A DNA stretch of 64,000 nucleotides from Owenia fusiformis. Its lineage: Eukaryota > Annelida > Polychaeta > Sabellida > Oweniidae. The stretch's first letter is position 1. Each line of letters begins with the position of its first letter. Where the stretch lies: positions 35,558,538 through 35,622,537 of the forward strand of contig CAIIXF020000007.1 of NCBI GenBank assembly GCA_903813345.2. The letters are read 5' to 3'. The notes beneath the pieces were generated by a model, which was not told the origin of the DNA, searched no databases, and was given only the letters and a program-made list of their open reading frames with translations. Positions 31,701-51,531 of this stretch are shown piece after piece. The translations under genes and the position numbers were made by a program.

Positions 31701-34700
31701 AGGTTCCAACACAATCTTCAATCTCCAAGCAGATTATTAAAGGATGTATATAACTATCAATGGCTTAGAAAACAATAAAAATTAGTTTTTTTGAAGAATA
31801 TCATCAATTAAATGCAATAAATACGCTTTCGCTATCTAATCAAATGTGAAAGTGCTCTAATAATGAAAGTGAAAGTATTTGGCCGTTGTTAGGAATTCCC
31901 CAAAACAAATGTCACAATGATTGTCTCCATACCATCCAATGCATATTACGTAATATTCGTGGCTGCTATTGTGAAAAACCAATGTAATGTGACGTCTTTC
32001 CCTAACAACGGCAGATTTGGAGAAACCCTCAAACTGTTAGTGGATTCCCCAAATTATTTTAAATTTATATACAAAATTAACTCTAACTTGGGTAAAATAA
32101 GCTTTCTACCACATTGCAATAGATTCCTCATATTAATACAAATATGTTATAACAATAGCACATAATGCTTTCAAGAAATAAGCCCAAAAACGGGAATTTT
32201 ATTGTAATTGAATTAAGGTGGGCCCCTCATTAAATACACTGGACGAAACGTTCTAAAATTGCTAAAAGTAGGGGTCATTGTAACAGCTCCCACTCCGTCA
32301 ATATTTTATCAATTTCTGTTTTCTTTATATGGAATGAAAGATGAAAATCCACTCCAAATACGTAATTAAAAATCAGTGTTATATATACACAGCAACATGC
32401 TGTATTAAATATTTGAAAAGGAGTGAAAATCACTTTTAGATTAATAGTTATATACAACCTTTAACTGATCATGCCTTAATTTGATACATCTTTTTTGGCT
32501 TTAGCATGGAATGCACGAATGAACTTATACATGTACAGATTATGACTATATCCTCTAGTCCGAAATATTTTTGAAAGGACCTTATACACCCTCCATTGGG
32601 ATCTCCCCATGAGAAAAAAATAATTCATCTGATTTTTCAAAATGAGTTTTCTGCTTCAATTATTACATTTATATGCACACTAGTATCTTGTTGACCTATA
32701 TTCAGCACTGTATTGATGTATAGGCCACTTATTAGGGTCATAATTCAATCATGAAGTGTAGAGGCATATGATTCCAAACCAGGAAGTATTTTTGTGTCTG
32801 TCAAAATCCATTTGCATCCTACGCATCCCTACATCTTATCCAAATATGTTACTACATAATGAAATAAAATAGTATATTCTTTGGTTTTACAAAGTTGTAT
32901 GAATTTTGATAAGTGTAAAAGTTGTTTTTGGAGCATTTTTCTATAGCCATTTTGTAGGGAAAAAAATGATGAAAAAATGTACAATCTTTTAATTTTAAGT
33001 ATGACCTGAATCGATTGCAAACTTCATATTTGCACATTTGATGAGATAAACCAATAGTGTCATATTGTGAAATTATTAAGTTTGCAATCGATTCAGGTCA
33101 TAGTGTATTTTTGTGATAATCAATAGAAACCAATGGCCTCTATTGGGATCTGCTGATATCCTCATGTTAAGTCAATGATGAACAGCCCCATGTAAGTCAA
33201 TACAACCTCACTAAACTAAATGGCCCCTATCTCAGCCTATGTGTGCCCGAGCACTTTAATATTTTCCAAAGAGTTATATGACATTCTATTCTTCATGTTA
33301 CACCTAAGAATTATTCATTTTGACCATAGGGGTATTTGCCAATAAACGCACCTCTTCCTTTGGAATGAAAATATTCAGACTAGAGCCCACATGTTATAAG
33401 TAATGAAAACTATTATACACAGCAACACGCTGAATAAAGGCTTTGAAAAGGTGTCAAAAACACTTTGATAGTTATATACAACCTTTAATGTCTTATAATG
33501 TCATATGTGATTTATACAATATACAATATACATTGTACTTCTATTCACCCAGGCCGCTGCAGTAAATAGAACATTTGAAGTTGGTTACAAAACATTCCTG
33601 AAGGATGGAGAACCTTACCGTTACATATCAGGCAGTATTCATTATAGCAGGGTACCACATTACTATTGGAAAGATAGGTTAATGAAGATGAAAGCAGCTG
33701 GATTGAATACCATTCAAATGTAAGACTTGATATTTCAACTAAGGGGAAGGAGGGTAATGTTGATGTAGGGTATTTATGATAATCAGAAGTAAGGTCATCA
33801 TGCACAGGGGCGTAACCAGCTTTCAGTCAGGGAGGGGTGTGATTGTGGCATAAACAAGCCAAAAAATTAAGATGTATCTTGAATTTTACAAAAATTGATG
33901 CAACTTCCTTCAAAATTAAGCTAGACGCTTCAAATAAAAAGCAGTTAAAGCTTTTTACTTCCTCTATTATATGGGGTGTGATTGCACATATCGCACCCCC
34001 CCCCCCCTCCCCTGGTTATGCCTATGATTCAAGAGAAAAAACATCAACTACTCAAGTCTGGATTGGATGAAGAATAAGTTCCTTTTTTATCGCACTTTGA
34101 AAAAGTTCTATATTGTCGTCGTCTAATGTGCTGTTGGGCGGGCGGGCGTGCGGTCGGGCGGGCGGGACATAAACCAAATCTTGTCATCAAATTTCCAGGA
34201 TAACTGCTTACCTGTTCAAATTGAAATTTTTACAGATGCAAGAGCAGACTAGTACCAAGATCTGATTATGTTAAGGGCATGCTGGGTAAACTACGTGGTG
34301 GCCATTTTGAATTTTTCAACAAATCTTGTCATCAAAATTCCAGGAAAACCACCATTTTGAATTTTTCAATTTGGTGGCCATTTTGAATTTTTCAACTTGC
34401 TCCAAATTGACCAAATTTTTTTTTTAAAAACATCTACATGTTCTCAAAAGTTCAAATCTGACCTTAGATTTTAGATTTGACCTTTCATTCACCTTCAGTG
34501 ACCTTGAAAAGGTAAAAAAAAATTGATTTTCTAAATTGATATTTTGGATTTAAATTTAGGTCAGCTTAATTACAAAACACCTACTGAGGTCTGAAAAAGT
34601 TAAATTTTCAAGGTCGAAGGTCAAGGTCATTAAACTAGGTCACAAATGATGTTATCCAAGTTTCTTAAAGTTTGAGACTACAAATCAATTCTTGTCATCA

Positions 34701-37700
34701 AAATTCCAAGAAAACAGCTAACCTGTTCAACTTGAAATTTTTACACATGCAATAGCAGACTAGTGCCAAGATCTGATTAGGTTAAGGGCATGCTGGGTAA
34801 ACTACGTGGTGGCCATTTTGAATTTTTCAACAAATCTTGTCATCAAAATTCCAGGAAAACCACTTATCCGTTCAACTTGAAATTTTTACAGATGCAAGAG
34901 CAGACTATTGCCAAGATCTGATTAGGTTTTGGGTATGCTGGCTGAATTACATGGTGGCCATTTTGAATTTTTCAATTTGGCGGCAATTTTGAATTTTTCA
35001 ACTTGCTCCAAAAAAGTTGATTTTCTAAATTGATATTTTGGATTTAAATTTAGGTCAGCTTAATTACAAAACACCTACTGAGGTCTGAAAAAGTGAAATT
35101 TTCAAGGTCGAAGGTCATCAAATTAGGTCACAAACGATGTTATTTAAATTTTCCCAAAGTTCAAGACTACAAATAAATTCTTGTCATCAAAATTGCAGGA
35201 AAACCGCTAACCTTGTCAACTTGAAATGTTTACAGATGCAAGAGCAGACTAGTGCCAAGGTCTGATTAGGTTTTGGCCATGCTGGGTAAATTGCATGGTG
35301 GCCAGTTTGCTCTTCAAAGTGCGATATTTATCACTGTGTGTCTTGTTCTTTTTTTCCATTTATTTAAATTTCCTAGATATTGATATATATACAAATGTAT
35401 GCCTTTGTTAACTTAATAACATTAGCGGCATAGTAAATATTAAAAATATAACACAGGAATTTACACAATACAAAAATCACGTAGTATGTTCAGTCTGTAT
35501 GTATGCTTGCTCCCCATCCCACCCATAAGGTTCCCAAAGGATTTTAGAATGTTTCACATGCTGTTTAAAACTGGGATTGCTGCTGAGACATAGTGAGCCA
35601 CGATTTCAATAATTTTGCCATTCATCACATCACTAAGGTTGGTATTCCCATTCAAAAGTGTATCTGATTTCTTAGAGATTGTTAAATTTCTGAAATCGGG
35701 CAGACAAATAAGTTCCTAAGTAATCATCTTTCATCCTCCACATTAATGTTTGCTATATTGAAAAAATAACTTAAAATTTTTATAACTTACATATATCATT
35801 ATATCATATATCAAATGAGACCATTCTGATTACAGGTATATAAACTGGAATGTCCACGAGCCCAAACCTGGGAAATACAACTTCACTGGCCAGCAAGATG
35901 TTGTGCAGTTCATGAAAATAGCTCAGGATGTTGGTTTAGATGTAGTACTCAGAGCAGGGCCTTATATCTGCGGGGAATGGGAAATGGTATTGAATCTATA
36001 TTCTTCTATTGACTGATATTGTCTGTTTTTTCCTATTAAAATTACATTAATGATTTTATTGATCATTTTATAATTAGCTACAAATTACATGTAGGTCTGA
36101 AATTATGATTGTTCCAAAGTCTGAAGGCAATATTTGAAATTAAAGTTCTGTTCTGATTCCCTTGAACAGTTCTGTACCAGCTCTATAATGTTACTTTATT
36201 TTATCATTTTAGGGTGGTATCCCTCCTTGGGTAACAAAGAACAATGCCTCTATAGTGTTGCGTACAATAGACCCCCAGTACCTTGCAGCTGTAGACAGAT
36301 GGCTTAGTGTACTACTACCTACAATAAAACCTATGCTACATATCAATGGAGGTCCAATACTGATGGTGCAGGTAAGGCAAATAAAATGACTTGTCACATG
36401 AAAATAATGCATGATATTTAAATGATTTCCCAGTTTTTAGTTTATCTAAGCTTGTATTCACGAATGCAACTTCCGGGATTAACCTACTATTTTATGACCT
36501 ACTCATTCAAATATGAATGAGTTGGATACATGAGCAAATACAAGATTAGTGAAGTTATTAGCCATTTGATATCAACTTGAAAATACATGCACACAGTACT
36601 TCGTAAGTATAAAACCTGTCCAATTCAAAAGTCACTGGGACTGGCTCATAGTTTATGGAATAGCATGTGTTCATATTTCAAAGTTGGTTTATCAAGGGAG
36701 TACAGGTGGAACTGAAACTGTTCATATTAAGGGGAGGCATCAAAAGATTGATGTCAGATCGGAAACTTAATAAATTAGTTTTGACTCGCACCCCCCCCCC
36801 CCCCAAAAAAAAACACACCTAAATGCCATGAAAGTTGATCGCTGACTTCTGGTTTGAGAATTTGAAAAATGATTGCTAAACAAGATCTAGTTTTTTTGTT
36901 AATTCCTATCGTAATTTGCGGCTTTTAACAACTTTTGATAGAATAGAATCCATTGGAATGATCTTGACGAAGAAAGCATCAGGTAAAATCTTTATTTTTG
37001 AACCATTCCAAGGCATTCTGATCCAAAATTGCCAAAAATTTTAAATGTTGAAATTTGTCGGATAGCAAACTGGAACTGGGTTTGAACAGTTCTCCCCCTA
37101 ACTAGATTTATTTAGTTCCGACATTGAACTTTTGATGCCTCCCCTAAGAGATGTGTAGATTACAGAGTTGTTTGAATATACAGGTTTTACTGTAGAGGTT
37201 ACTATAAGTACATGTGAACATTCTTATGACAGAGTTGCATACTTATTCAAGATTTGCTAAATATTGCGCAGATGATTCAGTATACTAAATGTACACAGTC
37301 AATTCACAATTTGAATAGGAAAACATTAGAAAATTACTCAGGGTACGTTACCCTATGCTAGCCAATACATGTATCATTGGTCTAATCTCAACAACTCTCA
37401 ATGTTTACCATGCTAAAAACCTGAAATTGTGAACACCTGCAAATCTGAAATCTTTTGGCTAATCCAAGTGGTGTCGGGATAAGATAGGTTTTACTGTACA
37501 TTGTATATGGTTTCGTCTAGGTTGAGAATGAGTATGGGAGTTACTTTGTGTGTGACTATGACTACCCGAGACATCTCAGACTATACATTGTGTATGGTTT
37601 CTTCTAGGTTGAGATTGAGTAGGGGAGTTACTTTGCATGTGACTATGACTACCTGAGACACCTCAGACTATACATTGTATATGGTTTCTTCTAGGTTGAA

Positions 37701-40700
37701 AATGAGTAGGGGAGTTACTTTGCATGTAACTATGACTACCTGAGACATCTCAGACTATACATTGTATATGGTTTCTTCTAGGTTGAAAATGAGTAGGGGA
37801 GTTACTTTGCATGTGACTATGACTACCCGAGACATCTCAGACTATACATTGTATATGGTTTCTTCTAGGTTGAGAATGAGTATGGGAGTTACTTTGCATG
37901 TGACTATGACTACCTGAGACATCTCAGACTATACATTGTATATAGTTTCTTCTAGGTTGAGAATGAGTATGGGAGTTATTTTGCATGTGACTATGACTAC
38001 CTGAGACATCTCAGACTATACATTGTATATGGATTCTTCTAGGTTTAGAATTAGTATGGGAGTTACTTTGTATGTGACTATGACTACTTGAGACACCTCA
38101 GACTATACATTGTATATGGTTTCTTCTAGGTTGAGAATGAGTATGGGAGTTATTTTGCATGTGACTATGACTACCTGAGACATCTCAGACTATACATTGT
38201 ATATGGTTTCTTCTAGGTTGAGAATGAGTATGGGAGTTACTTTGTATGTGACTATGACTACCTGAGACATCTCAGACTATACATTGTATATGGATTCTTC
38301 TAGGTTGAGAATGAGTATGGGAGTTATTTTGCATGTGACTATGACTACCTGAGACACCTCAGACTACAATTCATCAACTACCTAGGCACAGAAGCACTAC
38401 TATTTACCACTGATGGGGCTGGGGAAAATTACCTTAAATGTGGAACTCTGGAAGGCTTGTATTCAACAGTTGACTTTGGTCCAGGTATGTAAAGTTATTG
38501 AGCAATGAACACTGACAGATGGATATGATTGATGGCATATTTAAGCAATGTGAGAATCATCAAATTATTGAATATAATGGCCACTTAAAAAGTCAATAAC
38601 TATGAATTCTCATTTTTAATAATTCTAGAAATATTTTATTATTCACAAACTTTTTTTTTCTGAAAATATCAAAACTTAACCATTACTTTTTTGTTTAATA
38701 AATATAATTGATCATAGCTCATTTGATTAAAAAAAGGATTTCTACGAGGTGGCAAATTCTCTTGAAATCTCAGTGTCTTAAAGCAGATATGAAATGGTAT
38801 TTTTAACCTTAGCTAAAGGAATCAATATAATTTTTTGATAAATGTATTTGGACATGTTTTCTCATCAGTATTGTGAAAATTATTTCTCTCTAACGATCGT
38901 TATAGCTGCTTAATAAGCAATATTCGAATTGGTTTTGACGTTATTGGCCCCCACGTGATCTGTCACTGGTCCCCACGTGGCCTGTTTCGGTCCATTAGAT
39001 CATGACGTCATAATGCCAAAATGTTTTGTTACTTGTAACAACCCTATGGTTGCCGTGACGTTTTGATTACTAAGGAACCAATAAACCAAAGCTGTATTTT
39101 GTATATGACGTTACTAATCACGTGGGGGCCAATTTGATTGATCAGTTAGTTTTATTTCGTTATCTATGACCGTTAGCAGTTATCTAACATTTATTATCCC
39201 ATCGAACGAAGTTCGGAGGGATATAGGGAACGCCTCCGTCCGTCCGTACGTACGTCCGTACGTACGTCTGTACGTACGTCCGTCTGTCCGTCCGTTCGGG
39301 CAATAACTCAAATACCGTTGGCCCGATTTTATTCATATTTTGTACACATATACCCTATGGAGGTAGAAGTTCTGCTCGAAAGCCGATTTTTAAAATGGCC
39401 GCTCATTTAAAAATGGCGGCCATTTTAGTGCCGATTTTACAGTAATTTAGGTGCAATATGTAAAACTGTAATAGCAATATGTTTTAAATGTAAAAAAAAT
39501 TATATAGGACATTAATAAAGCTAGTAATGTAGATATTAAAAAAGCACATGGCAGCCATCTTGAAAAATGGCGGCCTTTACTCATTATTTTACGATTTTTG
39601 CTGTAACTCGAAAAGTAGTGGAGCGATTTTGTTCATATTTGGTATGTGAATACTATAAGCATGGCACACTGTCTAATGAAGCTTTTGATAGAAGGCGGTC
39701 ATTTTGAAAAATGGCGGACATTTTGAAAAATGGCCGCCATTTTTACTTATTTTACTAAAACTCGAAAAGTAGTGGAGCGATTTTGTTCATATTTGGTATG
39801 TGAATACATATAAGCATGGCACACTGTCTAATGACACTTTTGGTAGAGGGCAGTCATTTTTCAAAATGGCCGCCATTTTAACGTATTTTACTATAACTCG
39901 AAAAGTAGTGGAGCGATTTTGTTCATATTCGGTATGTGAATACTGTAAGCATGGCACACTGTCTAATGACACTTTTGGTAGAAGGCAGCCATTTTGAAAT
40001 ATGGCGGACATTTTGAAAAATGGCTGCCATTTTAACTTATTTTACTATAATTCGAAAAGTAATGGAGCGGTTTTGTTCATATTTGGTACGTGAATACGTA
40101 TAAGCATGGCACACTCAGTCTAATGACACTTTTGGTAGAAGGCGGCCATTTTTCAAAATGGCCGCCATTTTAACGTTTTTTACTATAACTTCAAAAGTAG
40201 TGGAGCGATTTTGTTCATATTTGGTATGTGAATACTTTAAGCATGGCACACTGTCTAATGAGACTTTTGGTAGAAGGCGGCCATTTTTCAAAATGGCCAC
40301 CATATTAACGTATTTTTTTACTATAACTCGAAAAGTAGTAGAGCGATTTTGTTCATATTTGGTATGTGAATATTATAAGCATGGCACACTGTCTAATGAC
40401 ACTTTTGGTAAAAGGTGCCCGTTTTGAAAAATGTTCGATGGGATTCGCTACGCTTTGGCGTTGCCGTTGTTCTGGTTTTATAATGGCTATCGCAAGAACT
40501 CTACAAGGGCCGATCAAAAAGTTTCTTACCGTTGGCTCTCAATTTTATAATAAGAGGAGTTGGAAGCTCAAACTTTAACATGAGACAGGATAGTTAGTTT
40601 GCTTGAATCTGTACGAGTTTCATATAAATTGGTTTATTGGTAGTGACACAGAGTCAATACATATTTTCAATGACAAAGTTAGGTGGAGTAGCGTTATATA

Positions 40701-43700
40701 TAAAATATATGCCGAGTTGTGGTTCTGGAAATTTACCGAAATCGTTTCAAACCTCTCATATGAAGGCCTTAAACATGTGTTTTTGGATCGAGTGGACAGA
40801 TATAGGAAGTGCATTGCAACTGGGGTTGACTATTTTGAATGAGAATGAATATTAGCAGAAAAAATAGTTAAACATGATTAAACTACACAGTCTGTTGACA
40901 GATGATACTACTTAGTGTTAGAAATTTTCGAAATCTGCAACTTAGCACAATTTTTTATAAAAAACGCTGCTCCACCTAATTCGATCATTGAAAATATGTA
41001 TTGACTCCGTGTCACTACCAATGAACCAATTAAAATGAAACTCGGACAGTCTCAAGCAAACTTACTACCCTGTCTCATGTAAAAGTTTGAGCATCCAACT
41101 CCTCTTATTATAAAATCTAGAGCCAACGGTAAGAAACATTTTGATCGGCCCTTGTATGTTGGGCTTACAATGGAAAAAAAACGCATTTTTGTAGCTGCAA
41201 GTTGAGAAAAGCTATTTCAGTTGTCCTTTAATGATTTAATTGTCTTATTCCAGGAGATGCAGTGAATTATTTTAAGCCTATGCAAAAGTGGGAGCCAAAT
41301 GGTCCTTTAGTAAGTAGACTTTTTACCTAATATATTTTTAGGGATACTTCCTGTTATTAAAAATAATATTACTTTAATTTTTGCATGCAGAGTAGCATAT
41401 TCAATTGTAGTATACTCCAATTACTGTTTTTTCCCCAAAGTGTTATATTTTATGTCTGATTAAGTTTGCCATGTGTCTTATATTCATTTTTCCTGTTTAG
41501 GTCAACTCTGAATACTACACTGGCTGGTTGGACCATTGGGGCTCCCCCCATTCTCAACGTGACATCCCATCTATTGTGAATACATTGAAACAGATGCTTG
41601 ACTTGGGAGCAAGTGTAAATATGTAAGTAATGTACAGTTAGACCTATCTGTTTTGGATGCAAATGGGACCAGACAAGTTTGTTCTGATTGGCATGTGTCA
41701 CATTTTGAGGCTTTTTAACATTGTAATTTATGACAGATTGAAAAATGGGACAGAAAAAGGTGTCCAAATTAAGAGATGTTCAGACATACAGGTTTACTGT
41801 ACAACAAATTGGGACAGTTACCAAAGGTTTGCAGAGGTGTTTTCTTAAGTTCTCTGGTTAAATGTGCCTAGATCTGCACTCAGAGCTGTCAAGTGTCCCG
41901 CGAATGGCGGGATTATCCCGCGAATTTGATCAAAATTAGGCTTATTCGCGTGTCCCGCAATGTCCCGCGAAGTCCCGCAAATGTGGTTTTGACCTCCGCG
42001 AATTTCCGAAATTGTTTGAATCCCCTATATTGTGATTATCTTATCTTATATAAGAAGCCAAGTTTTTGCACTTTTGAGGAGTAAAGTTTACCTAATTTTA
42101 AGTACCTAGCATGCTGTTGTTTGGTATGAAAATAAAGAGGAAGGGTTCAACTTTCATTTTAATTACGAAAATAGGGATGTAGGTCAAAAATAGTTCTAAC
42201 GTTGGCAAACGCGAGTTACAATAAATGGACGCTGATATCTAGAAAGGGTTTGTAGAAAAACCGGGTACCGGGTAGTAAATCCTCCATGCTGGGTTCAAAC
42301 TTGGTACCCGGTACCCGGTCAAAAAACGGGTACCCAAAAAACGAAAAATACGAATATATAACATAATTAGATTATGAGAAAACGTGTAAGATTTGTTTTG
42401 AATTCACAAAAATGTATGTATCCTTCAAAATTGAGCTAGAAGCTTCAAATAAAAAGCATATTTAAGGCTCCTTTCTTCCTCCCCCCCTTCATTACCAATG
42501 GAAATATGACCATGATGATAGAGGACAAAAAGAGCCTTAAAATGCTTTTTCTTTGAAGCTTCTAGCTCAATTTTGAAGGAAGTTACATACATTTTTGTCT
42601 ATTCAAAACAAATCTTACACGTTTTTTTAGTATATTCGTATATTTCGTTTTTTGGGTACCCGGTTTTTTCGACCGGGTACCAAGTTTGAACCCAGCATGG
42701 AGGATTTACTACCCGGTACCCATTTTTTTCTACAAACCCTATCTAGAAAAGTAACCCCATTCCCTATAATTTGATGTAGATTAATCGAACCCCGATATCA
42801 TGGGCTTTCAATTGAAAGAAAATGCCTACAGTATATGAATAGGTACATTTTAATATATAACATTATGGGGGTAAGCGTTTCATAGTTGTTCACGACGCCA
42901 GAAATGCAAAGTATTGTTCCGAATTTTTGAATTTCGTGTTAGATTACGGTACTCACACCTGAAGCATGGTTTTTGCTTTTGAAAAATTACAATAAAGTTT
43001 AATACTATTCCTATACGTATTTTGTGAAATTGTGTTGACGTTTATTTAAGTTACAATACAACGGTGCATTGTATTTGATTAATCAGTATTTGGAAGTTTG
43101 ATTTAAGTACTTTTACACGCTTTTACATTAGTCCCAATCACGCAAATCCTTGAATGTCCCGGGACATCCTGCAAATTTAGGTGAATGTCCCGCGAAATCC
43201 CGCAAATTTAGGGCACTTTGTCTAAAAAATCTGTCCCTCTATCAAGTTTTTGGCGTTAAACCTGTTACTATCCCACAATTAGGGTGTTTGTCCCTCGAAT
43301 GGTCCCGCGAAATCCCGCGAATTTGAGAAAAAAAAGATGGCCTATTAGCGCAATCACGCAAATCCCTTAAATGTCCCGCGAAATCCCGCGAATTTAGTAG
43401 ATGTCCCGCAAAATCCCGCGAATTTTTGGCACTGGGTCTAAAAAATCTGTCCCGCGGGAAAATCTTTAGGGGTTGACAGTACTGTGCACTGAAAAGAATA
43501 CATGAAATTATTCTAAATATGATATTGTACCAATGACAATTAAATATATATTCAAACATATGCTTGGAAAATAATTAAATCTTACAACAGTGAAATCGAT
43601 CGTGTGCATATATTGAATTTAGGATCTTGAATTTTTTTCATATTTTAGTTAAACTTTATTTTATCATACTAAAATATGTTCTAATGTATTTTAAATATTC

Positions 43701-46700
43701 ATTACAAATTGAATTGAATTATATATTCTCGTCATACTGAATTGAATTTTTTTGTATGTTGTTGAAGTGTGTTGTTTATATAAAAGTTTATTGTATACAT
43801 CAAAGTGTATTTTTGTATATATTCCAGGTATATGTTTGAGGGTGGTACTAACTTTGGTTTCATGAATGGAGCCAATGGGGCCCACCCAGGCTTCCAACCT
43901 GTGCCTACCAGCTATGATTATGATGCACCATTGAACGAGGCTGGTGATCCTACTCCTAAATACATGGCTATCAGGGACCTACTTGCTAAAGTAAGTGTAG
44001 ATGGTACCTGTATATGAATTGTAATTCTGATGTACCATGGTAACTTTCCCAGGTTGTGTGTGCAAAACATTTTTCATTTTGGGCCTGGATTTTGAACTAT
44101 TTGGTTCTCTTAAATTAGTTCTCATTGTTTAAAAATAGTCTATTCGATAAAAGGATCTGAATTGTTTGCATGGAAGAATTTTATGGGATGACTTCCATGG
44201 AACCATAAGTTTACTATATATAGTATATACATAAAGTTCATGCATTACTCATTATAATATTTTATTTGATTTATTGCAGTATAACACAGGCCCCCTCCCT
44301 CCTGTACCCCCAGCTCTGCCCAAGTATGCATATGGTACAGTGCAGATGAAGTTTGTAAGTTGACCTTTATTAGTAATAGTATTTGTATAGAACAGCCCAT
44401 TCTACTATAATACCAGACCCCCTCTTCTCTGCCGTTGGTGGAATTCCACTTTGGAAAGATCAAAACAAAAGGGGCATTGTTATCGCAATGTGAACAGCCT
44501 TCTGTCTGCAGCAATGCTCAAATATGATATTCCCATATCCAGCTAATTTTAAAGGAGATTAAATTTTCTTTATACCATCATACTACAGTACAAAATTAAA
44601 GTAGATTTCCCAATTTTTCTGTATTCTGCGTTTCATCGTCTTTGTGTCATTAATTGACGTTTTAGACGCATTTCAAGTAAGTTATGCATTTCTCATTCTC
44701 ATATCCGTCTACAATAAAAAGGTGAAAAGTTAAATTATGAAGCATAAAATGGTCCAACCGGCATGTAAAAATACAATCAATCGATATTCTAAGTTGACTT
44801 TTATAATTCTCCCTTGCCACTATACTATCCTAATGCCGTTTCTGGTTTTTATATCACCACCAGAAGTAAGGCATTCGGCATCTGTAACCAATGGCATGTT
44901 AATGCCTTGTCTCATCATTCCTTTGAAATTGTGCCATATATTTAAGTAGGGGTGAGACGACAACCCGATGAGTCGAGGACTCGCGGGTTTGGGGCTTCGA
45001 GTCGAGTCGAATCGAGTCGAAGTTGATGAATCGAATCATTTTCGAGTTGAGAAAAAAATTCGAAAAAATAAAAAAATTCAGAAAAATACTGTCAATATGC
45101 ATGTTTTTACTCTATATTGCGTTGAATATATAAGTTTCAATGACTTGGATATGCTTGTATTAAATTATTATATTGTATGTACACATAAATGAAAGAATAT
45201 ATGTAATAAAATCAGAATAAATTTACGACGAATTGTGTTTGTTTATATTTCCGGCTTTCCACCATTGACGCATTAAAAATACGAACGGTCAAAAGCGATG
45301 TTGTTCGCACTTCGCGCGACTCGAAACGGATTCGAAACTCGAATCGTCATTTTCTGACTCGAATCGGATTCGACTCAAATCGGATTTTTTCGACTCGTCT
45401 CACCCCTATATTTAAGTGTTACTGTTTCATTTGATATTTTGATTATCCATAATAGCTTTGAAGTTACTTGCTAAGTTTGGAAATGGTAATTAACCTGTCA
45501 TCTTGTTTACTTTTATGGCTACCTTGTTTATGTTTCAAGGTATCTACTGTAGTTGAAGCCCTGCATACACTCTCTCCTGAACCTGTACAGTACAAGTGGC
45601 CTCTATCTATGGAACAAGTTAACCAGGTTTGTAAACAGTTGAAAACGAAGGACTGGTTGGGGAATTTAGTTCACCAAACCCCACCTAGTCCTTTATACAT
45701 TTTTGTCATTATCATTCATCTTCTTTGATTCCCTTGTAATTTTCTAAAATTGATATTTGGATGTTTTAAATTTTCAGTTTTATATTCTGACATTTAAGAG
45801 TTTTGGTTATTTTTTCTGGTTTCCTTCACAGTGAAGTTGTTTCTGAAGATTCAATATTAGCCACACACTTATTTTTGTCTATAAATCAGATGTTATCACC
45901 TTGAAGATGAGATCTCAAAGATGAAATATCAAGATTTTCAACCTCTCTTTATGGAACAGTTGTCAAGAGCCAAGTCTCATTGGCTAACGTGTTAATTAAC
46001 CCTCTCTGTAAGGAAAAAACCTCCCTAAAAAGAAGTTTTGGTCAGCATTGATATTGTTCCATACACACAGGTTTTACCATATTATGAGTTTCGTTTTATT
46101 TTCAGAACTATGGGTTCATTGTATACAGACATTTGCTCAGAAAGAACTACACTTCTCCCACACTTGGTTGCCTCGGAGTCAGAGATAGAGCCTATGTTAT
46201 GATTGATAAGGTATTTCTTAATTTCTATAATTGCACCACATATTGTTATAGTCTCCAAATTTTTGGTGTTGGCTGTCGGCGCTCGGAATTGGGCACTTGG
46301 CATCTGTAACAAATGGTAGGTGGTGAGATTTTGCAAGTTAATGCCTTGTTAATTATTTAATCTAGCTTAAGAGAGTTAGCAGTTTACAATATTATTATAG
46401 TTACCCTCTAGGCATCTACATTGCATAAATGAGAAATACATGAACATGTAGCTGCATTAATGTGTTGCAATAAATGCCTTTGTGTATTCTATGAAATTCT
46501 GTTGATGACTGAAATGGTTAAGTTATCATGAACTGATATTTTATCACTGCCTCTCACTACTATTTCGAGTTCCAAATGTTTGGACAAGTTCTGATATTTC
46601 CCAATGTCTTACATAAGGGTGGAAGGATAAATATTAGTAGTTTGTTTGTGTTATTTTCTTTATATAGATAGACTTCAGTTTTTTGGATACACAGCAATAC

Positions 46701-48684
46701 AGCTGCAGTCTGTATTTCAGTCATGTGGTTCTATTCTCAAACATACACCCTGTTTTGGCCTGTTATGTCACCACCACAAGTGGTGAGGTATTTTTATAGT
46801 TTTCAATCTTTTTGGGGATGGTGTTTGGCAGTCAGCAGGGTACTGTACTAGACTTTTCATTGTTAAGGATTTTTAAAAGAAATATGAATGCGATGAATGA
46901 TTTATTAATTGTGCATTTTTCTACAGCAACCTCAAGGAATCATGAATGGAGATGGGCCTAACTCTCTGAATGTATCCATAGTTGCTGGTCAAACTATTGA
47001 TATTATAGTAGAAAACCAGGGCAGAATCAACTTTGGCACTAGTATCAATGGAAACTGGAAGGTAAATCACACTATTATCACTAATGTAACACTAAACCAT
47101 AATACATATTATTCATTTTTTTATTAACATCACATAGAAATAGACACACTATTTTCACTAACATCTAGAATTCACTATACAATGTGTCATATTCAGTTTT
47201 TATGAAAAAATATTTAGAGATTTCTGATATGACAATTTTACATGGGTGTATTTTCAAGGATTAGGATTGAAAAAAACTTAAGAGTGGTTGATATCCAGGC
47301 CCGTAGCCATGATTTGCCAAGGGGGGTTCACTTTTTGAATATTTCCAGGGGGGGTTCACTTTTGACAATTTTGGTCCAAAATCACTTAAAATGTGCTCAG
47401 AATGATGAAAAACTGCATGATTTTGAAAGAATTTTTGGCCAGGGGGGGGGTTGTTCGAACCCATCGAACCCCCCCCCCCCCTAGCTACGGGCCTGATATC
47501 CATTATGATAATGATTAGTTTAAATACATATTTGATGGACCATAAGTAAAACATTGCAATTGGCTTTTTTAGGGTTTAATTCAGAATGTTACCATGGGAA
47601 CAGAAGTGTTGGAAGATTGGGAAATTTTCCCCCTCCCTCTTGATAACATCAATGAAGAAACTTTGAGAAAACTGGAACACAGGTATGATCTCGGTTGTCT
47701 CCCCCAATGTAAATACATGTATTATATTAGATGTCTCTCCAAAATAAAGTTATAATCCCAATTGTCCTATAAAGCACTGATACCTTCTCACTTTTGGATC
47801 AGTAATAAAAATCCTTGAATTAGTGTCACAAAATGCACGCTGTTTTTGCTTCTTTGCTAGCTATATTGTCATAATTTGATACTGTTGTTATTTGATGATT
47901 TAAATTCTTGATTTGCAGTGCCAGATCATCTCCACATCTGGGAGCTTTAAAGCAGGGTGGTTACCATGGTAAAGCTGATACTGTTGTCTTGACTCCTTCT
48001 CTTTACAAGGGAACATTCCAAGCTCCCAATAAGCCAGGCTTCCTTCGGGATACTTTCCTCAATATGGATGGATGGTTTAAGGTAAGAAGAACTCTAAGTT
48101 ATAACTGTACTGATACAGACTTTTCCCACAATTTTGTTTATATTTAATCTTTGTTTATATTTAAACTTGGAAGTCTGAAACATTGTCTTTTAGAAAGTGA
48201 TGTCCATTTTCATAAGTATATTTTAATTTTTTGTATTAAAAAATTGGTGATGATGTCATTTTCATATGCTGATATTTTATGTCATATATTTTATGTGGTA
48301 AAGCCATTTCAAGAAGCAATTGCTACCAGTCAGGTGTTTACAACTACAAGGTGTTCAATTGGATTTGTTACACCTTCGCTTGGCATTGCTGTTATAGATT
48401 GCTGTTGTACATTTTGAGTTTCCTTTCAGGGCCAGGCATTTATGAACGGCTTCAATCTGGGGAGGTACTGGCCAGTGAAGGGTCCCCAAGTCACCTTGTA
48501 TGTACCTTCAGGGGTCCTTAAAGCATATCCTGCAGAGAATGACCTTGTGATGATGGAACTGGAATGGGCCCCTTGTGCTATGAACAATAATCAAATAGGA
48601 GATGATTGTACAGTGAAGTTTATTGATACTCCAATAATCAATTCTACAAGTATTGCAGTGTCACAATTTGGACACTCTCCTTAG
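22712..48684 (+). CDS. GLB1: Lysosomal beta-galactosidase, GH35 (15 exons, complete)
   Basis: Removes terminal beta-galactose from gangliosides and glycoconjugates in the lysosome. Exons: 22712-22777, 33553-33719, 35836-35986, 36213-36371, 38304-38484, 41254-41309, 41501-41622, 43828-43990, 44280-44354, 45540-45626, 46106-46210, 46927-47061, 47573-47682, 47919-48081, 48430-48684. All are GT-AG, phases agree, and the total is 1995 nt (664 codons plus stop; human is 677). Exon 1 encodes a hydrophobic signal peptide ([13 protein letters not shown]). The GH35 barrel shows [24 protein letters not shown] and [29 protein letters not shown] has the acid/base Glu near residue 185, and [14 protein letters not shown] has the nucleophile Glu near 264. 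Then come [29 protein letters not shown] and the C-terminal beta domains with [15 protein letters not shown] and LELEW-like MELEWAPC. Both catalytic residues are present and no frame break is seen. Intron 1 (10.8 kb) and intron 4 hold large repeat structures described separately. No AATAAA follows closely after the stop, so the 3' end is open. Confidence 0.96.
22990..23825. mobile_element. Foldback element with diverged inverted arms
   Basis: Left arm from about 22990 (CCTAGTCCTAGCCTTGCCC, then TTATTACCGCCTTG) pairs with the right arm at about 23768-23825 (CAAGGCGGTCATAATAG, then CAAGGCTACCTAGTCCTAG). The inner part has paired GATTGACCAATCAAAA and GTTGATTGGTCAAAT. No target duplication could be fixed. 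Confidence 0.5.
23926..25137. mobile_element. Inverted-repeat DNA element (CAGTGGAGACGATAACCCC ends), 5 bp AATTT duplication
   Basis: Ends CAGTGGAGACGATAACCCC / GGGGTTATCGTCTCCACTG, flanked by AATTT (23921-23925 and 25138-25142). The arms continue as CATTTAACGTGAAGTACGG against CCGTATTACACGTTAAATG. Repeated AATTGACGTGCAA motifs lie inside each end. No transposase is recognisable. It lies in GLB1 intron 1. Confidence 0.8.
25251..25311 (+). repeat. Direct 30 bp duplication
   Basis: GGTTAACTGATGTTGCATTC plus TGGGAGTCAA occurs twice in a row. A reverse-oriented partial copy (GGCTCCCAGAATGCAACAT) lies at about 25170. The TGCATTCTGGGAG core resembles half of a ZNF143 site, but this is deep in GLB1 intron 1. 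Confidence 0.6.
26850..27125. repeat. Degenerate ~45 bp tandem repeats
   Basis: Repeats built on GTTTTTGCGGTAGATTTT and AAAATCTGGAG vary in length and sequence. They form part of the 1.6 kb segment (26019-27652) that interrupts the oldest copy of the intron 1 repeat unit. Confidence 0.55.
27280..27632. repeat. Inverted repeat with ~75 bp arms
   Basis: TAATACTCTGTTAATTCTTAG...CATGCAAATTAGAGA (27291-27350) pairs with TCTCTAATTTGCATG...CTAAGAATTAATAGAGTATTA (27548-27625). The spacer of about 200 bases contains further GGTAATATTCTGTTAAC variants. It forms the right part of the inserted segment in GLB1 intron 1. Confidence 0.65.
27950..28923. mobile_element. TA-flanked element with CAGTAAAACCTG ends, large form
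   Basis: Starts CAGTAAAACCTGCGAACAGG and ends GACAGGTTTTACTG, flanked by TA on both sides. Internal repeats read GGTTTTCCCTACAGAGAGG. The ends and TA target fit the Tc1/mariner superfamily. No transposase is seen. Confidence 0.8.
29870..31197. mobile_element. DNA element with CCCAGCCTATC ends inserted between repeat units
   Basis: Inverted ends CCCAGCCTATCGTCAGG / CCTGATGATAGGCTGGG, flanked by AT. The junction between units 2 and 3 (around 32137-32155) shows the same target without the element, so insertion with a 2 bp AT duplication is directly supported. The interior is made of degenerate repeats of TTTTGGTCTA and AGGCGCA. It has no coding capacity. Confidence 0.85.
32380..33487 (+). repeat. 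Pair of ~80 bp direct repeats about 1 kb apart
   Basis: A sequence with ACACAGCAACATGCTG...TTTGAAAAGG...GTTATATACAACCTTTAA at 32380-32463 recurs at 33410-33487 with ACACAGCAACACGCTG. The second copy ends 65 bases before GLB1 exon 2. The sequence between holds the hairpin at 33001 but no gene. Confidence 0.6.
33001..33103. repeat. Short hairpin with perfect 25 bp arms
   Basis: TATGACCTGAATCGATTGCA at the left pairs with TGCAATCGATTCAGGTCATA at the right, around about 50 bases of loop. GLB1 intron 1. Confidence 0.7.
33806..34025. mobile_element. Miniature element with AGGGGCGTAACCAG ends (GLB1 intron 2)
   Basis: Ends GGGGCGTAACCAGC / CTGGTTATGCCT. The interior CCTTCAAAATTAAGCTAGACG...TTCAAATAAAAAGCA and a poly-C run match the miniature elements found inside the palindromes at 42246 and 58667. 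It starts 86 bases after exon 2. No clear target duplication. Confidence 0.65.
34089..35325. mobile_element. Core-repeat element 1 (GGGCGGGC microsatellite plus ~143 bp repeats)
   Basis: Short inverted ends ATCGCACTTTGAAAAAG / CTTCAAAGTGCGAT. It opens with a (GGGC/GCGG) microsatellite at about 34135-34165. Then come repeated blocks with ATCTTGTCATCAAAATTCCAGG, ACAGATGCAAGAGCAGAC and GTGGCCATTTTGAATTTTTC (near 34170, 34320, 34690, 34830 and 35175). It lies in GLB1 intron 2. The architecture resembles Helitron-related pearl/HINE elements of invertebrates (inference). Confidence 0.7.
36731..37144. mobile_element. PIF/Harbinger-like miniature element, TAA target duplication
   Basis: Inverted ends GGGGAGGCATCAAAAG / CTTTTGATGCCTCCCC, flanked by TAA on both sides (36728-36730 and 37145-37147). 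The sub-terminal arms continue to pair for about 45 bases. The interior includes a poly-C/poly-A tract. It appears to be nested in a larger CAGTAAAAC-type element (about 36610-37194). It lies in GLB1 intron 4, upstream of the 87 bp array. Confidence 0.82.
37497..38366 (+). repeat. 87 bp tandem array duplicating the intron 4/exon 5 junction of GLB1
   Basis: Ten copies spaced exactly 87 bases apart. Each is 24 bases of intron end (TACATTGTATATGG, pyrimidines, TAG) plus the first 63 bases of exon 5. Exon parts begin at 37521, 37608, 37695, 37782, 37869, 37956, 38043, 38130, 38217 and 38304. Only the tenth (38304) continues into the rest of exon 5. Every copy keeps the AG acceptor. Copies 2, 3 and 4 have a TAT to TAG change at the Tyr of ENEYG; copy 7 has two stops. 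Copies 1, 5, 6, 8 and 9 have an open 21-codon exon part. If unspliced, each unit reads into the TAG of the next acceptor, because 87 is a multiple of 3. Variants shared between non-adjacent copies (ATTCTTCTAG acceptors of 7 and 10) indicate unequal exchange. Confidence 0.97.
39197..40443. mobile_element. Core-repeat element 2 (CCGT/ACGT microsatellite plus ~140-150 bp repeats)
   Basis: Ends TCCCATCGAACGAA / GTTCGATGGGA. A (TCCGTACG)-type microsatellite lies at about 39236-39297. Six repeats of ACTCGAAAAGTAGTGGAGCG...GCATGGCACACTGTCTAATG follow, separated by AAAATGGCCGCCATTTT. Start points are near 39606, 39759, 39896, 40048, 40187 and 40326. It lies in GLB1 intron 5. The open frames across it on both strands are repeat frames. 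Confidence 0.75.
40504..41154. mobile_element. TA-flanked foldback element with ~185 bp inverted arms
   Basis: Ends CAAGGGCCGATCAAAAAG / TTTTGATCGGCCCTTG, flanked by TA. The arms (40504-40690 and about 40972-41154) match closely over AGTGACACAGAGTCAATACA and similar, around a loop of about 280 bases. It lies in GLB1 intron 5. Open frames of 60-80 codons within it are not recognisable proteins. Confidence 0.78.
41635..41799. mobile_element. Tc1/mariner-like miniature element (CAGTAAAAC family)
   Basis: Ends CAGTTAGACCTATCTG / ACATACAGGTTTACTG, flanked by TA, starting 12 bases after GLB1 exon 7. The interior shows the GTTCTGATTGGCATGTG type of sequence found in related copies. Confidence 0.7.
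41881..43484. mobile_element. CCCGCG-rich DNA element, copy A, 6 bp target duplication
   Basis: Ends CAGAGCTGTCAA and (inverted) CAGTACTGTCAA, flanked by TGCACT on each side (41875-41880 and 43485-43490). Both termini hold degenerate arrays of GTCCCGCGAAATCCCGCGAA, which translate only as repeat frames. It carries a nested palindromic insertion at 42246-42739. It lies in GLB1 intron 7. The superfamily is unresolved: the CAG...CTGTCAA ends are hAT-like, but the duplication is 6 bp. Confidence 0.85.
42246..42739. mobile_element. Nested palindromic element (GGGTTTGTAGAAAAA ends), 10 bp target duplication
   Basis: Begins GGGTTTGTAGAAAAA and ends TTCTACAAACCC; flanked by TATCTAGAAA on both sides (42236-42245 and 42740-42749). 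The arms contain GGTACCCGGTACCCGG blocks. The centre is an inverted pair of the AGCTAGAAGCTTCAAATAAA sequence. The duplication length suggests a Mutator-like element. It is inserted in copy A. Confidence 0.8.
44947..45408. mobile_element. Non-autonomous hAT element, 8 bp target duplication
   Basis: Perfect terminal inverted repeats TAGGGGTGAGACGA / TCGTCTCACCCCTA, flanked by exact duplicates of TATTTAAG (44939-44946 and 45409-45416). The ends consist of degenerate GAGTCGA/CGAATC repeats. There is no coding content. It lies in GLB1 intron 9. Confidence 0.92.
46250..46352. mobile_element. Right-end remnant of the GTCACCACC family
   Basis: TTTTTGGTGTTGGCTGTCGG...CATCTGTAACAAATGGTAGG followed by TGGTGAGATTTTGCAAGTTA matches the 3' half of the element at 62066-62212. 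It begins 40 bases after GLB1 exon 11. Confidence 0.55.
47297..47494. mobile_element. Miniature element with AGGCCCGTAGC ends, 7 bp GATATCC duplication
   Basis: Ends AGGCCCGTAGCC and GGCTACGGGCCT-like (GCTACGGGCCT), flanked by GATATCC (47290-47296 and 47495-47501). The interior has G- and C-runs and a TGATGAAAAACTGCATGATT core. It lies in GLB1 intron 12. The short open frames on either strand are just element sequence. Confidence 0.85.
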
Positions 48685-50198: not shown

Positions 50199-51531
50199 AT
50201 GTCCCCACCACATAGTGTTGGGCCATATTGTCGGCCTAGGCGTGATAATTTTGTAAAAAGATTTCAACAAAAACTCATAATCACTTTTTTATTGTCGGCC
50301 ATTTTGGATTTTTCCGTCCTATAATCTTGTCTGTAAAGTCTTGTCTACGCGTTTTCAGGTGAACCGTTTGGTAGATCAATTTCAAATTTTCAGGGATGAT
50401 TCTTAGTATGAGAATCTAGATCTGATTAGTTTTTGGGCATTCTGGGTAAATGTCAAGGCAGCTATTTTGGATTTTTCGTTCTAAAATTTTGTCTTTAAAG
50501 TCTTGTCTACGCATTTTCAGGTGAACTGTTTGGTAGATCAATTTCAAATTTTCAGGGATGATTCTCAGTATGAAAATCTAGATCTGATTAGTTTTTGGGC
50601 ATTCTGGGTAAATGACAAGGCAGCCATTTTGGATTTTCCGTCTTAAAATCTTGCCCGTAAAGTCTCGTCTACGCGTTTTTAGGTGAACCGTTTGGTAGAT
50701 CAATTTGAAATTTTCAGGGATGATTCTCAGTATAAAAATCTAGATCTGATTAGTTGTTGGGCATTCTGGGTAAATGTCAAGGCAGCCATTTTGGATTTTC
50801 TGTCCTAAAATCTTGTCTGTAAAGTCTTGTCTACACATTTCCCGGTGAACTGTTTGGTAGATCAATTTCAAATTTTCAGGGATGATTCTAAGTATGAAAA
50901 TCTAGATCTGATTAGTTTTTATGCATTCTGGATGAATGTCAAGGCAGCCATTTTGGATTTCCCATCTTAAAATCTTGCCCGTTAAGTCTTGTCTACGCGT
51001 TTTTAGGTGAACCGTTTGGTAGATCAATTTCAAATTTTCAGGAATGATTCTTAGTTTGAAAATCTAAATCTGATTAGTTTTTGGGCATTCTGGGTAAATG
51101 TCAAGGCAGCCATTTTGGATTTTCTGTCCTAAAATCTTGTTTGTTAAGTCTTATCTACGCATTTCCAGGTGAACCGTTTGGTAGATCAATTTCAAATTTT
51201 CAGGGATGATTCTTAGTATGAAAAACTAGAACAGATTAGTTTTTTGGCATTCTGGATAAATGTCAAGGCAGCCATTTTGGATTTTCTGTCCTCATATCTT
51301 GTCTGTAAAGTCTTGTTTACATGTTTTCTGGTTAACTGTGTGACGGATCAATTTCAAATTTTCAGGGGTGGTTCTTAGTATGAAAATCTAGAACTGACTA
51401 ATTTTTTGGCATTCTGGGTAAATTTTAAGGTGGCCATTTTGGATTTTCCGTCCACAAATTGTGTCGGTTAAGTCTTGTCTACTCATTTTTAGGATAACCA
51501 TTTGACAGGATCACCCAAAAGGTGGGGACAT
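50199..51531. mobile_element. Core-repeat element 3 (~162 bp repeats, GTCCCCACC ends)
   Basis: Ends ATGTCCCCACCACATAG / AAAGGTGGGGACATTTT. About eight repeats, roughly 162 bases apart, carry GTAGATCAATTTCAAATTTT, TAGATCTGATTAG and GCCATTTTGGATTTTC. It has no long microsatellite. It lies downstream of GLB1 and may fall in its 3' UTR or between genes. Confidence 0.78.

Follow-up and report, generated by a model that had tools for sequence, protein, structure and literature searches.

Ten tandem copies of a 3′ splice site in a GLB1-type β-galactosidase gene: a minisatellite probably bypassed in splicing

How can an exon be joined correctly when its 3′ splice site is preceded by nine near-copies of itself? 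This question is raised by a GLB1-type β-galactosidase gene on the plus strand of a 64,000-nucleotide stretch of contig CAIIXF020000007.1 (the window, in whose coordinates positions are given unless another contig is named), where an 87-bp segment spanning the boundary of intron 4 and exon 5 is present in ten tandem units. Judging from the DNA sequence, we consider it quite likely that this array is a near-neutral minisatellite of the kind known as “mirage”, which is passed over through exon definition while some transcripts leak into the decoys and decay.

The gene and its tandem array

Fourteen coding exons were found, which after joining gave 642 codons with a single terminal stop and left GT-AG borders at all 13 intervening introns. 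They are labelled e2–e15 according to the numbering of the initial annotation, the first (signal-peptide) exon lying outside the 14 located. The product aligned with residues 3–631 of the β-galactosidase in PDB entry 3thc, which we take to be the human enzyme, with 718 bits (phmmer), and the 60 amino acids of exon 5 gave their own match to this entry (E 5.2e-23). Membership in GH35 follows from full-length similarity to lysosomal β-galactosidase and the motif ENEYG, both present in the product, and together with the 3thc matches it bears out the gene identity proposed in the initial annotation. The sequence VENEYG in exon 5 is presumably the acid/base Glu motif. The elements considered below, all on the plus strand, are as follows.

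33553..48684, plus strand: coding exons of GLB1 (GH35 lysosomal β-galactosidase), from the joined exons and phmmer comparison with 3thc
36213..36371, plus strand: exon 4, donor CAG-GTAAGG (junction after CAG)
36372..38303, plus strand: intron 4 in its present form, 1932 nt, housing the nine decoys
37493..38366, plus strand: tandem array of ten 87-bp units, from Tandem Repeats Finder (TRF), repeat search and unit alignment
37521..37583, plus strand: decoy exon start 1
37608..37670, plus strand: decoy exon start 2, with an in-frame stop
37695..37757, plus strand: decoy exon start 3, with an in-frame stop
37782..37844, plus strand: decoy exon start 4, with an in-frame stop
37869..37931, plus strand: decoy exon start 5, in the unit identical to the consensus
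37956..38018, plus strand: decoy exon start 6
38043..38105, plus strand: decoy exon start 7, with two in-frame stops
38130..38192, plus strand: decoy exon start 8
38217..38279, plus strand: decoy exon start 9, with a C-to-T change giving TTT-GTATGT at 38244, a possible donor
38304..38484, plus strand: real exon 5, 181 nt, phase 0 to 1, motif VENEYG, donor CAG-GTATGT at 38485

TRF described the array by a period of 87, 10.0 copies, 94% matches, 0% indels and a score of 1552, and all nine start-to-start spacings registered by the repeat search were exactly 87, in agreement with the invariant, indel-free period claimed earlier. Each unit consists of the last 24 nt of intron 4 (pyrimidine tract and TAG; consensus TACATTGTATATGGTTTCTTCTAG) followed by 63 nt from the start of exon 5, coding in the consensus for 21 amino acids. 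The AG/GT junction is preserved in 10 of 10 units, at positions 37521, 37608 and so on to 38304; the nine additional intron 4/exon 5 boundaries previously described ahead of the genuine exon are therefore real features of this sequence, and all nine are decoy acceptors lying upstream of exon 5. The units are 90–99% alike, the mean pairwise difference being 5.7%. Private changes are present in copies 1, 2, 3, 6 and 7; the least similar to the others are copy 7, an inner one, and copy 1 at the edge, and identity barely drops with distance up to lag 5.

Since the units differ to this extent, an assembly loop of identical copies is an unlikely origin of the array. Tandem repeats are often misassembled, and a study on amphioxus notes one mirage that appears to be misassembled in the genome draft (PMC3087553); the exact copy number here could still be off. 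However, with the private changes named above and a position on a 39.8-Mb contig, an assembly artefact can be given very little credence. When the 498-Mb assembly was searched with the unit, 10 matches were obtained among the best candidates scored, all of them within the array, and a further query, copy 1 together with its unique flank, hit the same ten places. Neither search of the assembly found a second haplotype or a paralogous array.

No other close copy of GLB1 turned up in the assembly, the remaining GH35 loci found being distant. One of these, at C4:19985862-19987655, is an intronless gene with a 709-aa open frame 38% identical to the GLB1 of the window, and an N-terminal hydrophobic stretch was noticed in it by eye. 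Pieces 38–63% identical to GLB1 are located near C7:32.76-32.86 Mb and C10:23.39-23.41 Mb. A back-up GLB1 elsewhere in the assembly was rejected on account of these distances. With open exons, clean joins, similarity to 3thc over the full length and no other close copy found, the array is apparently tolerated.

The decoys look free to lose the reading frame. Twelve distinct kinds of exon-part change relative to the consensus were registered over 59 exon positions, i.e. 3 nonsense, 4 missense and 5 synonymous, the expectation for random changes (transitions weighted 2) being ~5.5% nonsense, 72.5% missense and 22% synonymous; missense changes are not in excess, and this spectrum is therefore not a formal test. 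Nonsense kinds (two GAG-to-TAG changes in copy 7 and a TAT-to-TAG change common to copies 2, 3 and 4) and missense kinds occurred only in decoys, two synonymous kinds being shared with the real copy, which has two exon-part differences from the consensus, both synonymous. A comparison of the nine decoys gave no evidence for selection that keeps or purges their splicing signals: changed were 4 of 216 intron-like and 21 of 567 exon-like sites (p 0.26), with one of these 21 changes falling in the unique flank of copy 1. On the reading favoured here, the array is probably close to neutral for the protein and variable in length.

Features that distinguish the real exon 5

Splice sites were evaluated with two kinds of weights. 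Local acceptor and donor matrices were derived from 13 sites each of this single gene, exon 5 being left out of the training of the acceptor matrix; vertebrate splice-site and branch-point weights follow general vertebrate frequencies. Although the acceptor matrix is small, the ranking of near-identical sites depends little on it. By this matrix the ten acceptors of the array outscore all others among the 117 AGs of intron 4. Decoys 3, 4, 5, 8 and 9 score higher than the real site, copy 7 equals it, and only 1, 2 and 6 are lower, which supports the earlier view of a real acceptor accompanied by nine decoys of about the same strength.

It is, on this reading of the sequence, not the acceptor that marks the real exon but the strong downstream donor at 38485. 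With vertebrate weights this donor is the best in the region 37491-38500, scoring 5.6 against 1.0 for the next GT; in the local matrix it reaches 12.3, and the best of the other 13 sites listed is TTT-GTATGT with 7.1. For comparison, the 13 real donors of the gene range from −1.8 to 7.4 by vertebrate weights and from 3.9 to 11.6 by the local matrix in leave-one-out mode. Thus, no donor within the array comes near the strength of 38485. The internal GTATAT of the units scores −3.9 with vertebrate weights, below all 13 real donors, and 4.2 with the local matrix, at the low end of the range. A C-to-T change shared by copies 7 and 9 (38070 and 38244) creates GTATGT, the same hexamer as in the donor of real exon 5. 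Exon length differs as well: starting from the real acceptor it is 181 nt, and from the decoys it would be 268 to 964 nt.

The branch point must also be accounted for. The scan with vertebrate weights registered one further element, which agrees well with the vertebrate branch-point motif:

37490..37494, plus strand: branch-point-like TTTAC, with its A at −28 from acceptor 1

This motif lies outside the copied 24 nt of the intron and hence is kept by decoy 1 alone. Copies 2–10, the real one included, have CTCAG at −30 and other candidates in the exon part of the preceding unit. The duplication has presumably moved the real exon ~810 nt away from TTTAC, and a new branch point would have to serve it. 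RNA structure hiding acceptors left no sign in units 9–10, the two units folded (z +1.06, 178 of 200 shuffles folding at least as well).

A history compatible with these observations may be proposed. Tandem duplication would have affected an 87-bp segment that happened to straddle the 3′ splice site of intron 4, and unequal exchange or slippage may have enlarged the array to ten units. New copies would have carried the pyrimidine tract and AG without TTTAC, so that copies 2–10 presumably rely on the unit before them for a branch point. Intron 4 has 1932 nt and intron 5 has 2769, against 191 for the shortest intron located in the gene. PMC9225289 places the change to exon definition at introns of 250 nt, and since introns 4 and 5 both exceed this length, exon definition was applied to exon 5. 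Defined between two such long introns, the real acceptor would be chosen as the only one with a strong donor downstream at an ordinary exon size, here 181 nt. Some transcripts probably leak into decoys, above all into the nearest ones, and would decay after meeting a stop within 29 codons.

Several observations weigh against this scheme. According to the human data in PMC9225289, exon definition weakens the preference for the upstream one of two 3′ splice sites without inverting it, so that nine equal decoys need not simply be passed over. Exons of 268 and 355 nt, which would start at the nearest decoys, are not disqualified by their size. Decoy 1 would be favoured by its sole retention of the branch-point-like TTTAC. 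The TTT-GTATGT of copies 7 and 9, with its local score of 7.1, falls inside the range of real donors. Finally, AG is kept in 9 of 9 decoys; by hand arithmetic at ~3% divergence chance alone gives this about half the time, and because of that the intact dinucleotides say nothing on selection.

Predicted fate of transcripts that would enter a decoy

From each of the nine decoys a stop is reached within 29 codons. Copies 1, 5, 6, 8 and 9 provide 28 sense codons followed by the TAG of the next acceptor; in copies 2, 3, 4 and 7 the stop already falls within the exon part. The premature termination anticipated in the initial annotation thus holds for all nine, but the predicted addition of 21 codons does not, the number being up to 28 or, in the four copies named, cut short. 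A premature stop with many junctions downstream is a target for decay by the usual rule. No long open frame runs through the array on either strand; the longest in the decoy part has 57 aa, nine stop-to-stop frames of at least 30 aa being listed for 37300-38500.

If the decoys truly compete with the real acceptor and captured transcripts decay, the array might work as a copy-number rheostat, in which more copies mean less productive GLB1 mRNA and length variants differ in enzyme level. Decoys about equal to the real acceptor in sequence, the universal stop within 29 codons ahead of many junctions and the presence of TTTAC at decoy 1 only are all in line with this idea. We nevertheless regard it as unlikely: splicing is reportedly undisturbed by amphioxus mirages (PMC3087553), the changed sites gave no hint that decoy signals are selected for or against, and no second haplotype was found in the assembly. 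A farther-reaching form, in which unstable array length would produce heritable, finely graded GLB1 levels, each unit diverting a share of pre-mRNA to decay via the TAG of the next acceptor, appears improbable too. Its boldest variant, to be taken with the same reserve, would have misjoined transcripts rescued in part through re-splicing, with whole multiples of 87 nt being taken out.

Such re-splicing could in principle be complete. Joining of exon 4 to a decoy regenerates the potential donor CAG-GTTGAG (GTTGAA in copies 3 and 4, GTTTAG in copy 7), and a second splice would then remove the surplus and give normal mRNA at any copy number. The geometry is exact in all units, as the surplus of 87 nt or its multiple runs from GT to AG; the donor regenerated at copy 7 has a local-matrix score of 4.2, near the bottom of the real range of 3.9–11.6; and re-splicing at weak regenerated sites has been documented in Drosophila lacking the exon junction complex, as outlined in PMC8184009. 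Yet with vertebrate weights the regenerated donors score from −3.0 to −3.4, below all 13 real ones, and in 8 of 9 decoys the local score is only −0.1 to 0.2, also below the range of real donors. According to PMC6224609, recursive splicing depends on a regenerated 5′ site of high strength, other such sites being repressed by the exon junction complex. Self-repair of this kind is hence hardly to be expected. The decoys do resemble the recursive splice sites and recursive-splicing exons presented in the same paper, as an acceptor abuts GT and the join regenerates a GT 5′ site, but differ in that by vertebrate weights this site is weak in 9 of 9 cases. Their classification as recursive splice sites was accordingly rejected, no usable regenerated 5′ site being found with these weights.

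A last possibility is that decoys serve as small cassette exons, adding copies of the catalytic segment to the protein. Frame would be kept, as 87 nt make 29 codons and the phase is 0. The gain of TTT-GTATGT in copies 7 and 9 (7.1 by the local matrix) points in the same direction, and in copy 9 it would yield a micro-exon of 27 nt (38217-38243), open and in frame, followed by an intron of 60 nt. The local scores of this site, of GTATAT and of the donor regenerated at copy 7 speak against calling these donors dead. Against cassettes are the stops in the exon part of 4 of 9 decoys (copies 2, 3, 4 and 7) and the weakness of GTATAT by vertebrate weights (−3.9), though it has 4.2 by the local matrix. 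GTATAT also lies only 18 nt ahead of the next acceptor, so that the in-frame 69-nt cassette initially proposed, joined through GTATAT to the adjacent copy, would require an 18-nt intron and is not feasible; both this and the 60-nt intron of the micro-exon are below the 191 nt of the shortest intron found. Joining to the next-but-one copy would create an intron of 105 nt. Tandem cassette exons were thus rejected as a description of the decoys in view of the four stop-containing exon parts and the internal donors weak by vertebrate weights, and the repeat-domain isoforms envisaged in the initial annotation, which meet the same obstacles, found no support; we assign them a very low probability.

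Minisatellite background and known counterparts

In 20 pieces of 10 kb, taken at the fixed positions of 5 and 15 Mb on contigs C1–C10, TRF registered 11 non-overlapping regions with a period of at least 40, including 4 with at least 5 copies; by the same criteria the window contains 7 regions, 2 of them with at least 5 copies. Minisatellites are therefore common in this genome, and one that straddles a splice site needs no special cause. Besides the GLB1 array, the window harbors a further large minisatellite at 50298-51504 (period 162, 7.4 copies, 87% matches by TRF), and intron 5 of GLB1 contains nested tandem repeats with periods of 136–138 and 290 at 39586-40433 (TRF). Other mirages were sought by eye, which is a weak test, among 106 P450 and 92 myosin-head matches (92 of 719 and 65 of 210 candidates scored, respectively), and no short profile segment was seen to recur at regular spacing. 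The myosin scan brought to light twelve minus-strand matches in tandem, all to one Myosin_head segment (approximately profile positions 27–81) at C9:37986009-37994334; their spacing is irregular and the run resembles a large cluster of alternative myosin exons. Separately, three matches to the erythrocruorin linker (PF16915) above the curated cut-off lie within 15 kb at C6:27033687-27048438; this being an annelid family, they suggest that the genome is that of an annelid and make amphioxus an unlikely source.

The closest counterparts are the amphioxus mirage minisatellites of Adh3 and of the globin genes BflGb6 and BflGb9, for which PMC3087553 reports apparently undisturbed regular splicing by reverse transcription PCR as well as length and somatic instability. 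In both systems minisatellite-like units follow each other head to tail across an intron-exon boundary, and in BflGb6, as in GLB1, the unit combines the 3′ end of an intron with the 5′ part of an exon. AG/GT signals are present in many amphioxus units and in 10 of 10 GLB1 units; unit identity is 81–100% and 90–99%, respectively. Units of 87 bp stand against 150–160 in BflGb6 and 10–72 in Adh3, and ten units against 6 and 3 in the BflGb6 haplotypes. The genes are different, and so probably is the phylum; splicing and length variation were observed in amphioxus, whereas the GLB1 array is known from the sequence of one assembly. The array thus matches the structural description of mirages; its structure is not unprecedented, and it is probably an annelid member of this class.

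Other systems share single traits with it. A variable number tandem repeat crosses an intron-exon junction of FAM20C, like the GLB1 array, and is reported to affect alternative splicing (PMC5941971). In human duplicated genes, internal tandem repeats at the borders of exons and introns (PMC2812944) likewise represent minisatellite expansion altering exon or intron length, but they belong to recent paralogs with transcript evidence, unlike the GLB1 array. Intron gain by tandem duplication (the Rogers model) is exemplified by potato RdRp (PMC4974935), where, as in GLB1, a piece with AG/GT was duplicated in tandem; the same source tells of fission-yeast genes, one of which has an intron across four 24-bp duplicates. 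In potato, however, the branch site was co-duplicated and a cryptic GTAAG donor activated, and no such donor is evident in the GLB1 array, whose duplicates most likely do no more than extend a pre-existing intron.

The array constitutes a natural counterpart of the minigene with a duplicated 3′ splice site, in which ten near-identical acceptors differ mainly in their downstream context. Isoform reads from this locus would give a direct measure of the extent to which exon definition outweighs the advantage of the first acceptor, and of whether the output of the gene changes with the length of the array.

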